Source of the DNA: Spirochaetales bacterium Spiro_02
Lineage (GTDB): Bacteria; Spirochaetota; Spirochaetia; Sphaerochaetales; Sphaerochaetaceae
Assembly (NCBI GenBank): GCA_001604275.1
Contig: LVBD01000069.1
Location: 1 to 64,000, forward strand
Length of the DNA: 64,000 nucleotides
Reading direction: 5' to 3'
The position numbers and the translations under genes were made by a program. Numbering within the stretch: the stretch's first letter is position 1; each line of letters opens with the position of its first letter. The notes beneath the pieces were generated by a model. It ran no database searches, was not told where the DNA came from, and worked only from the letters and a program-made list of their open reading frames with translations. This document shows, one piece after another, positions 49,553-64,000 of this stretch.

Positions 49553-50191
49553 ATGAACAGTGACATGCTGATCCGTATCACACGATATTTCCGAGCGCTC
49601 AATCGTCTAAAATCGGTCGGGCTGGAAAAAGTTTTCGCCCACAACCTCGCGGACGCGGCGGGTGTCTCCGCGGCGGTAGTCCGAAAGGATTTCTCGCAGC
49701 TTGAGATCCATGGGCAGAAGCGCGGCGGCTATGAGATCGGAGAACTCGTGACCCGTCTGGGGGAAATCCTCGGCAAGGGGGATCCGCAGAACACCATCAT
49801 CGTCGGGTGCGGGCGAATCGGCAAGGCGTTGATGCATTACAACGGGTTCGAGCCGGACGGGATCAAGATCGTCGCGGGATTCGATTCCGATCCGCTGGTC
49901 TACAGCGATGCCTCATACCCCGTGCCCGTCTATTCCATCAGCAGGATCGAGGAGGTTGTCCACGCCATGGATGTCAAGGTCGGCATCATCACCGTGCCGG
50001 AATCGGCGGCCGCAGACAGCTATGAACGGTTGCTGGACGCAGGCGTGATGGGCATCCTCAATTTCAGCCCGGTAACGCTCAAGCCTCAGATTCAGCCGGA
50101 CGGCACGGTTCCCGTAGTGCACAACATCAACATCGCGCTGGAACTTGAGCAAATCTTCTACGAACTGAAATTCCCTCGCAAACAAGAATAA
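49553..50191 (+). CDS. rex: Redox-sensing transcriptional repressor Rex
   Basis: 212 residues. An N-terminal winged helix (about 1-80; VVRKDFSQLEIHGQKRGGYE is the Rex recognition region) and a Rossmann NAD(H)-binding domain (IIVGCGRIGKAL, about 85-195), ending in the domain-swapped helix IALELEQIFYELKF. Rex releases DNA when NADH rises, so control of the divergent NADH-hydrogenase operon is expected. AAGGAG lies 7 nt before the ATG. Confidence 0.95.
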   Translation: MNSDMLIRITRYFRALNRLKSVGLEKVFAHNLADAAGVSAAVVRKDFSQLEIHGQKRGGYEIGELVTRLGEILGKGDPQNTIIVGCGRIGKALMHYNGFEPDGIKIVAGFDSDPLVYSDASYPVPVYSISRIEEVVHAMDVKVGIITVPESAAADSYERLLDAGVMGILNFSPVTLKPQIQPDGTVPVVHNINIALELEQIFYELKFPRKQE

Positions 50192-50331
50192 GGGTCATTG
50201 CAGGGTCATTGCAGGGTCATTGCGGTATGTACGGCAGAGGTGCGATAAACGCCCCTGCATGTGCCTCGTATGCGTCCTGCACGCCCCTGCCGCCCCTGCA
50301 CGCCAATGCAATAACCCTACACGTACCCTCA
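50191..50331. repeat. Stop-codon-abutting repeat cluster between rex and thrC
   Basis: AGGGTCATTGC occurs three times head-to-tail with an exact 11-bp period (50191-50223), its first A being the last base of the rex stop. Facing it, the strand that follows the thrC stop reads TGAGGGT, six bases, AGGGTTATTGC (50331-50307), so the region has an inverted-repeat frame. The centre carries several CCCCTGC units. It may act as a transcription end in both directions. Confidence 0.8.
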
Positions 50332-51417
50332 CTTTTCACTTTTTAGTCCGGCGCCGCACAGCGATATGAGCGAATCTCCTTCCAATACATGCGACATCGT
50401 ATACGAAATGTACGCCGCATAGGTCGCGGCGGTAGTATGCTCCACGAAGAACCCGCGACGGGAAAGTAGGTTCCGCGCAGGCAGAATACCGTCTTCCGGT
50501 GCAAGAATCACTTCTTGCCCACCCGGGTAGCTTCCAGTCAGAATCTCCGCGGCGCGCATCGGACGACCGATAGCGATACCCTCGGCATAGGTAGGCTCAG
50601 GAACGATTTTTCGAGCATTCTCACCGACAGATCCGAACAGTGGAGCACAACGCTCGCTCTGCACCAAAAACAGCTTCGGAAGACGATCGATGCAACCGCT
50701 GTGGAACAACTCCATCAACGCAAGCCGGCAACCGAGGAACAACGTTCCGTTTCCTACAGGAATGAACAAGTTGTCGGGGATACGACCGAGTTGCTCGAAG
50801 ACCTCGTAGACGAACGTCTTCGTCCCCTGGTAGAACAATGGATTGTACACATGGTTCGCATAGTAGATGCCTTCGTCGGCGGCCTTTGCGCGACATGCGT
50901 CGGCTGTCTCGTCGCGAGTGCCGTCGAAAACAGTCACAGTCGCCCCATGCGACTCGATCATCTTGATCTTCTTGGGCGATGTACCCTTCGGCACATAGAT
51001 TTCACAGGAGATTCCCGCCCTAGCGCAATATGCCGCCACGGAATTTCCGGCATTGCCGCTGCTATCCTGCAGCACCTTGTCGACACCGATATTCCGACAA
51101 TGCCAGACAAGAAGCGAAGCCCCACGGTCCTTGAACGAAAGCGTCGGCATCGCATAGTCGAGCTTTACGAACAGATGCTCGTCGAACGGTATCGTCGCAG
51201 TCGCCCCCTCGCCAAGCGTCACATCCCGCCAGCTATTCCCCTCGAGCGGCAGAAAAGCCCGATAACGATACAGATCGAAACGGGAACCGTCGATCAAGGA
51301 ACGATTGAACGCGGGGGGAACATAGGCAAGACGGAACAAGCCGCCGCATGAACAGCGGTACTCCCTGGTATCAAGCGGATACTCCTTGCCACAGGAGACG
51401 CAGATGAAATGAGCCAT
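50329..51417 (-). CDS. thrC: Threonine synthase-like PLP enzyme
   Basis: 362 residues. An N-terminal zinc-ribbon-like part (CVSCGKEY and CSCGG), the PLP lysine in LSFKDRGA, the phosphate-binding SSGNAGNS, and GNGTLFLG match the short threonine synthase class, which converts O-phosphohomoserine to threonine. A related PLP ammonia-lyase or cysteate-type function cannot be excluded. The ATG at 51417 has GGAGG 6 nt upstream. Confidence 0.87.
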   Translation of the reverse strand: MAHFICVSCGKEYPLDTREYRCSCGGLFRLAYVPPAFNRSLIDGSRFDLYRYRAFLPLEGNSWRDVTLGEGATATIPFDEHLFVKLDYAMPTLSFKDRGASLLVWHCRNIGVDKVLQDSSGNAGNSVAAYCARAGISCEIYVPKGTSPKKIKMIESHGATVTVFDGTRDETADACRAKAADEGIYYANHVYNPLFYQGTKTFVYEVFEQLGRIPDNLFIPVGNGTLFLGCRLALMELFHSGCIDRLPKLFLVQSERCAPLFGSVGENARKIVPEPTYAEGIAIGRPMRAAEILTGSYPGGQEVILAPEDGILPARNLLSRRGFFVEHTTAATYAAYISYTMSHVLEGDSLISLCGAGLKSEK

Positions 51418-51539
51418 GATGGACCTCCGGGAAAATTGAGTCGGACGACTTCCGCTCGAAAAGGCCGCCACTGTTCGCAGTCGTCAAAAACAAACGTATT
51501 CTCCATCCGATGCCACCATACGTCAAGTCCCGGTCCAGA

Positions 51540-63262: not shown

Positions 63263-63943
63263 ATGAAGAAAATCGCGATCTGCATGATGATGATCATCGC
63301 CTCGTTGACGAATCTCTGGGCGGCCGACGCCGTCGCGGAGCCTGCGGCGGCTCCCGACGAGACCGTTGTCGTCGAGAAGGGAGTCGCCTCATGGTACACC
63401 AGTGACAAGCCGGAGAGTCTTACTGCGAACGGGGAAGTCTTCGATCCGACGAAGATCGCCGCCGCGCACAAAACGATGAAGTTCGGTACTATCGTACGCT
63501 TGACGAACCTGAACAACGGCAAGACGGTGGATGTCAGGATCAATGACCGCGGACCGTATGTCGATGGACGGATCATCGACTTGACCCCGGCGGCGGCGAA
63601 GGCTGTGGATATGGTCGAAAGCGGTATCGCCCCTGTCACGTTGCAGGTCATCTACGAGCCGGAGGTGCCGGAATCGAAGTACAAGCGGGCGGGAGACACC
63701 GGCTGGTATCTGCTCCAGCTCGGAGCCTACTCCTCGACCGCCACCGCCTATACCCAGTATGAACGGTTGCTCAATGCGGGTCTCAGGCCGGCGGTGGAGA
63801 TCGTCAATGATTCCTTGGTTCGCTTGTCGGTGCGTTGGGTTCCTGCGTACCAACTGGATCGAACCCTCAAGACTCTCAGCGCCCTCGGCTTCAGGGAAAA
63901 GGACATTCTCAAAAAAAGCGAAGACAACCCGTATATAGGATGA
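63263..63943 (+). CDS. rlpA: RlpA-like septal/lytic transglycosylase-type protein with SPOR domain
   Basis: 226 residues: a signal peptide (1-20, ending WAA), an RlpA double-psi barrel (about 38-130; GVASWYTSDKPESLTANGE and VRINDRGPYVDGRIIDL hold the catalytic-type Glu/Asp region, quoted in part), then a C-terminal SPOR domain (about 145-215) that would bind denuded glycan at division sites. No lipobox is obvious. The signal peptide and ATG fix the start despite the missing Shine-Dalgarno. Confidence 0.88.
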   Translation: MKKIAICMMMIIASLTNLWAADAVAEPAAAPDETVVVEKGVASWYTSDKPESLTANGEVFDPTKIAAAHKTMKFGTIVRLTNLNNGKTVDVRINDRGPYVDGRIIDLTPAAAKAVDMVESGIAPVTLQVIYEPEVPESKYKRAGDTGWYLLQLGAYSSTATAYTQYERLLNAGLRPAVEIVNDSLVRLSVRWVPAYQLDRTLKTLSALGFREKDILKKSEDNPYIG

Positions 63944-63987
63944 GGGTCATTCCAGGGTTAGGGTCATTCCAGAGTTAGGGTCATTGC
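63943..63987 (+). repeat. Stop-codon-abutting repeat after rlpA
   Basis: AGGGTCATTCC begins with the last base of the rlpA TGA and recurs at 63960 and, as AGGGTCATTGC, at 63977, separated by AGGGTT and AGAGTT, giving a 17-bp period. Same core as the repeat after rex. It may continue past the window. Confidence 0.78.
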
Positions 63988-64000
63988 GAGGTAGGGCGCT

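Follow-up and report, generated by a model that had tools for sequence, protein, structure and literature searches.

Tandem 11-nt repeats at stop codons in one spirochaete genome and their association with RAYT-like transposase genes

Tandem arrays of a short repeat, written AGGGTCATTGC, have been added precisely 3' of T(A/G/T)A at stop codons of a single spirochaete genome, where they share an orientation relative to the genes, are dispersed over many loci and occur together with RAYT-like genes. Such an enzyme may have mobilised them, and we give about even weight to the reading that they are genome-specific, short, non-autonomous REP-like elements, linked to RAYT, that were inserted at stop codons and then expanded in tandem.

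Arrays at stop codons

The window (the whole stretch of DNA that was analysed, 64 kb) carries arrays behind three genes. Two of these genes are convergent: rex (212 aa; 49553-50191, plus strand) and thrC (threonine synthase, 380 aa from a GTG start; 50329-51471, minus strand). The first-pass annotation had described three exact AGGGTCATTGC units starting at the last base of the rex TAA and, behind the opposing thrC stop, TGAGGGT with a diverged unit, and both descriptions are borne out. The rex-side array lies at 50191-50223 on the plus strand (units 50191-50201, 50202-50212 and 50213-50223), position 50191 being the last A of the TAA, and is continued in register by the 11-nt unit GGTATGTACGG (50224-50234, plus strand), a variant of the central unit AGTAGGTACGC of other arrays. 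The thrC-side array (50308-50331, minus strand) is flush with the thrC TGA at 50329-50331 and consists of A(of TGA)GGGTACGTGT and AGGGTTATTGC (50318-50308), which makes two 11-nt units when counting starts at the A of the TGA. A C-rich imperfect tandem repeat (CCTGCACGCC x3; 50276-50304, plus strand) is the partner of the G-rich arms and is predicted to form a hairpin with the left arm. The third gene, of the rlpA family (226 aa; 63263-63943, plus strand), is followed by an array absent from the first-pass list (63943-63996, plus strand, flush with the TGA at 63941-63943); its period is 17 bp, AGGGTCATTSC plus AGGGTT or AGAGTT, and it reads AGGGTCATTCC-AGGGTT-AGGGTCATTCC-AGAGTT-AGGGTCATTGC (63943-63987). 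With at most one mismatch, the 11-mer is found 7 times in the window versus 1.16 expected, a count reached in none of 100 shuffles; no Rfam families were found within the window.

The genome scanned comprises 2,611,409 bases in 74 contigs. Array positions come from pattern searches and from stretches of at least 3 kb fetched around every site, and genes were called with a home-made codon-usage script (one array sits at a gene end that this script miscalled). A genome-wide count had been proposed from the outset, few or randomly placed copies being the outcome that would speak against the repeat; the repeat passed this test, with 72 exact copies of AGGGTCATTGC as against 0 for the reversed control and 0-4 copies in each of 60 relatives. 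The pattern AGGGTCATT was found at 93 places (reversed control, 2), four of which were discarded, being lone matches that lie by chance within genes or in sequence without repeats. Copies of the AGGGTCATTGC type group into 53 arrays, mostly tandem, and a later search with GGGTDATTGC (40 places; control, 1) adds approximately 12 arrays of T/G/A variants, for a total of about 65 array loci with 1 to 6 units each, 1-4 in most. For the 11-periodic pattern GTCATTGCNNNGNNATTGC the genome has 48 matches, against a single match in each of two genomes among 100 family relatives. A dimer search across genome contigs, in which the window's own genome was possibly outside the search set, returned five unrelated single matches.

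Most arrays (43 of 53) follow a gene that is read on their own strand, and in 32 of 52 the first base falls between -2 and +5 nt relative to the end of a same-strand stop codon. Were the arrays placed uniformly within their spacers, 2.2 of them would be flush in this sense (maximum 7 in 500 randomisations), and were they placed only at T(A/G/T)A (TDA) sites, 9.3 (maximum 20), so that the suspicion that the position at the two stops was unlikely to be due to chance is supported genome-wide. Since targeting of TDA sites alone falls short of the excess at stops, selection or another factor is needed as well. The trinucleotide preceding GGGTC is TAA, TGA or TTA in 37 of 52 arrays (background 2.8%) and TCA in none of the 52; TTA gives a TAG with the G that opens the repeat, and because the left end abuts T(A/G/T)A on its 3' side, a TAA or TGA is retained. 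Among the roughly 12 T/G-variant arrays found later, which form an independent set, at least six are flush (L200, L233, L238, L242, L243 and L245). Two arrays, one from the later set (L239) and one from the first (L054), directly follow the T-run of an intrinsic terminator. Convergent gene pairs are enriched for arrays (26 of 40, versus 37 of 161 control ends; Fisher p 9e-7), and overall the arrays sit between genes, as REPs do, most of them on the 3' side and in convergent spacers; like the repeats of Xanthomonas and Nostoc, they have tandem G-tract units in sense orientation at stops or close to them. No general post-stop consensus was found over all genes, in a sample that was chosen away from AGGGTCATT sites and so gives no estimate of array frequency.

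The same gene ends can be seen without arrays in relatives, and the proteins are unchanged here. The rex C-terminus is placed as in relatives, within a few residues, and the rex loci of relatives, where they were readable, have no array. Enolase ends in ...YAGRDAFRVL* here and in most relatives; in the relatives a terminator follows a few tens of bases after the stop, with no array, and here AGGGTCATTGC x3 stands between the stop and a terminator further downstream, behind an unchanged C-terminus. EF-P, GdhA and AsnB, each upstream of an array, are full length by NCBIfam. Stops made by gene truncation are therefore ruled out for rex, enolase, EF-P, GdhA and AsnB, and the arrays were added behind intact genes. 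At a few loci the reading frame continues into the array.

Element anatomy and RAYT-like genes

The repeat unit is GTYATTGC plus 3 nt, 11 nt in all, repeated head-to-tail. In the fullest copies, (AGGGTNATTGC)n is followed by AGTAGGTACGC or a variant and by a C-rich arm (CACCC...CACCCTA), and in many spacers G-rich units point inward from both ends. The C-rich right arm and the central unit AGTAGGTACGC, which contains GTAG, are found in only a subset of the arrays; the AGGGTCATTGC unit itself has no GTAG. A 68-bp element at C45:~1690 and C72:~17860 is 98.5% identical between two loci with different flanks, which shows dispersal beyond slippage. The central motif GTAGGTACGC was rejected as an abundant dispersed repeat (7 exact copies versus 22 for the reversed control).

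Many array spacers (e.g., L047, L052, L066, L074, L085 and L093) also contain other tandem arrays, perfect or nearly so and independent of the 11-mer, with units of 9-19 bp, as if these spacers were prone to tandem duplication. In L063 and L093 the arrays lie upstream of what appear by eye to be candidate cobalamin riboswitch leaders (GGTGAGAATCC...GCGGTCCCGCCACTGTAA). A large CRISPR array with the repeat GTTTCAATCCACGCACCCGCGGGGGGTGCGAC and a period of about 66-67 bp is present on C3 (L103, 10917-19388).

Two RAYT-like genes are present in the genome. RAYT1, a RAYT/IS200-type gene of 259 aa (C33; L101, 1048-1827, minus strand), lies between inverted copies of a sister repeat, GTCATTGCTTT-GCCATTGCTGC-ATGCCTGCTCG-GTGATTGC, that has the same 8-nt core, GTCATTGC, and the same 11-nt period as the AGGGTCATTGC arrays. 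The sister repeat (GTCATTGCTTTGCCATTGCTGCATGCCTGCTCGGTGATTGC) has 9 exact core copies in the genome, and the copies inspected are not flush with stops. RAYT2 (C45:35423-36145) is 37% identical to RAYT1 (E 2e-48) and starts some 125-150 nt downstream of an array that follows a TAG and reads GGGTTATTGC-AGGGTTATTGC-AGGGTTATTGC-AGGGTTATTGT-AGTAGGTACGT (approximately AGGGTTATTGC x4-AGTAGGTACGT), flush with the stop of a gene that by inspection is nicotinate-phosphoribosyltransferase-like. The HUH motif reads HIH in RAYT1 and HFH in RAYT2, and Y167, N171 and P172 are conserved, as expected from the HUH motif, catalytic tyrosine and YxxxNP-type motif of RAYT transposases. RAYT1 matches Pfam Y1_Tnp above the cut-off (31.7 bits); RAYT2 scores best against the NCBIfam family of REP-associated tyrosine transposases (E 7e-6, below the curated cut-off), and its predicted model, of low confidence (mean pLDDT 51), best matches PDB 4er8 and the IS608/ISDra2 (IS200/IS605) transposases.

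The 3' end of RAYT2 is cut by IS-like sequence at the contig end (L199/L200, C45:35423-36342); no inverted right copy of the repeat was seen there, the right flank having been lost to the IS-like sequence and the contig end. On the minus strand this IS-like stretch gives a short translation that by eye resembles the C-terminus of an ISAzo13-type transposase. Elsewhere (L102, C60:14377-14487) a fragment matches an IS200-like transposase profile and looks like a degraded IS200 copy. RAYT homologs were found neither in 392 other genomes of the phylum (E<=1e-10) nor on plasmids.

Origin of the arrays

The suggestion that the repeat is a mobile element gains from its dispersal, from the array-free gene ends in relatives and from the linkage to RAYT-like genes; the mobilisation itself we infer. 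RAYT2, a RAYT/IS200-IS605-type HUH tyrosine transposase, would insert the elements as single-stranded DNA, cutting beside a short target and leaving no target duplication, with single-stranded AGGGTYATTGC / AGTAGGTACG as candidate substrates. Insertions would be retained mainly where they regenerate a stop: at a stop codon they would be harmless and restore it, and most of those at other sites would be purged. The arrays would then grow and diverge by slippage, and any effects on mRNA 3' ends would be secondary. To judge from the known TnpA-REP enzymes, the main difficulty for RAYT mobilisation lies in the substrate: characterised enzymes need a hairpin and GTAG and cleave at CT/CA (PMC8266576), whereas single units here and the sister repeat form no hairpin, and the arrays stand at TDA. 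The scores of RAYT2 below the curated cut-offs, its truncated 3' end and the inverted right copy that was not seen there also count against this reading. A distinct RAYT-like lineage that handles hairpin-less tandem 11-nt repeats and inserts them exactly behind stop codons, 3' of T(A/G/T)A, is a possibility that we put forward only tentatively; if it is real, translation stops are safe harbours for a bacterial mobile element.

Selection on the transcript offers another account, in which sense G-rich repeats act in RNA (by 3'-end protection, pausing, Rho-dependent termination or a weak G-quadruplex) and are kept as helpful 3'-UTR elements. The strict sense orientation of the arrays and their enrichment between convergent genes would fit, as would the G-rich heptamers of Xanthomonas, which are placed likewise and at which transcripts start or stop more often (PMC4692102). 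Folding gives a divided picture: convergent spacers with arrays are more structured than controls (median z -2.46 versus -1.08, p 0.005), and the whole rex-thrC spacer folds better than its shuffles (z -2.6), but codirectional array spacers give no structure signal relative to controls. The three-unit array itself has an MFE of -2 kcal/mol (z -0.47), without the hairpin of a REP, and the sister repeat likewise forms no hairpin (z +1.75). Intrinsic terminators (a GC hairpin plus a T-run) are equally frequent with and without arrays (3 of 26 and 2 of 14 array ends versus 6 of 37 and 19 of 124 controls, or 12-14% versus 15-16%), and at enolase the terminator is still there, downstream of the array. 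The arrays are thus unsupported as replacement terminators, and the idea that they form a transcription-ending element found no positive support. With just some 65 sites in the genome and a repeat nearly absent from relatives, we regard a selected 3'-UTR element as unlikely. A neutral minisatellite, in which TAAGGGT-like post-stop sequences grew in place through replication slippage and selection ends at the stop, seems to us a little less likely again. Slippage is active, given the many unrelated 9-19-bp tandem arrays in neighbouring spacers, and unit number does vary; however, such tandem arrays are rare elsewhere in the genome, and copying between loci is needed to explain why one 11-mer stands at about 65 unlinked places and a 68-bp copy is dispersed.

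Two kinds of established element remain to be weighed against RAYT-linked insertion. The arrays might be MITEs of a cut-and-paste (DDE) insertion sequence that duplicates a TNA target (IS1031-like), the inverted G-rich and C-rich ends being its terminal repeats; left ends are indeed preceded by TNA, and in several elements repeats point inward from either end. In the codirectional cases read by eye, however, no direct TNA to match is evident at the right ends, TCA never occurs, and no insertion sequence with such ends was found, all of which make this origin improbable. That they are ordinary palindromic REPs (GTAG- or CGTC-tagged), of the kind to which the first-pass annotation likened the core, is the least probable reading. 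The GTCATTGCGAG-type repeats named there correspond best, we presume, to CGTC REPs, and an exact-text match of GTCATTGCGAG in the literature gave irrelevant matches only. The likeness to these is limited to the GTCATTGC core. In favour of REPs in general, some central units contain GTAG and the 3'-side and convergent location is typical of them; but the unit has no 20-40-bp palindrome, and known REPs are rarely head-to-tail, being mostly inverted dimers (PMC3733652).

Comparison with known repeat systems

GTAG-tagged REPs occur with RAYT genes (Nunvar et al., 2010, PMC2817692; Di Nocera et al., 2013, PMC3733652), and their ends often supply a TAG stop (PMC3733652). Our arrays resemble them in being intergenic with a 3'-side and convergent bias, in the inverted sister-repeat copies that flank RAYT1 and in the GTAG of some central units; they differ in that GTAG REPs are hairpins of 20-40 bp, whereas these are hairpin-less head-to-tail 11-mers that abut TAA and TGA stops besides TAG. 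CGTC REPs, reported also from Spirochaetes, have a CGTC/TGTC tag, an 8-9-bp stem, a 4-5-nt loop and a CCA tail (Di Nocera et al., 2013, PMC3733652). The arrays share with them an NGTC followed by AT, but CGTC REPs need their stem (and have no dedicated transposase known), and membership fails because the unit here has none. BrickBuilt of Porphyromonas gingivalis (PMC4596501) is likewise a tandem minisatellite within a dispersed miniature element; unlike the arrays, it has a 23-nt unit, lies 49-591 nt from genes and has 19 copies with small inverted-repeat ends.

Similar in placement are the G-rich heptamers GGGAATC of Xanthomonas and GGGGA(C/T)T of Nostoc (Rehm et al., 2015, PMC4692102), which, like the arrays, are short G-rich tandem units on the sense strand, at most 50 bp from a stop or overlapping it, with inverted pairs and in few genomes. 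Those are 7-nt units that form short-loop G-quadruplexes and have no reported link to a transposase, whereas the arrays have 11-nt units, an exact T(A/G/T)A boundary and a linked RAYT; with one GGG per unit, 8-nt loops and mostly 1-4 units, they lack the four or more G-tracts with short loops of the heptamer type.

Why several unrelated repeat families (GTAG REPs, the Xanthomonas heptamers and now this 11-mer) should abut stop codons has had no explanation so far. Here the boundary between T(A/G/T)A and GGG is exact, relatives show two of the gene ends as they are without an array, and the genome also encodes a candidate enzyme that the relatives lack, as they lack the repeat, so that target choice versus selection becomes testable with one protein and short oligonucleotides. 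Placement at stop codons was already known from the GTAG REPs and from the GGGAATC repeats of Xanthomonas; what is new is a non-palindromic 11-mer that is found at all three stops and is linked to a RAYT.
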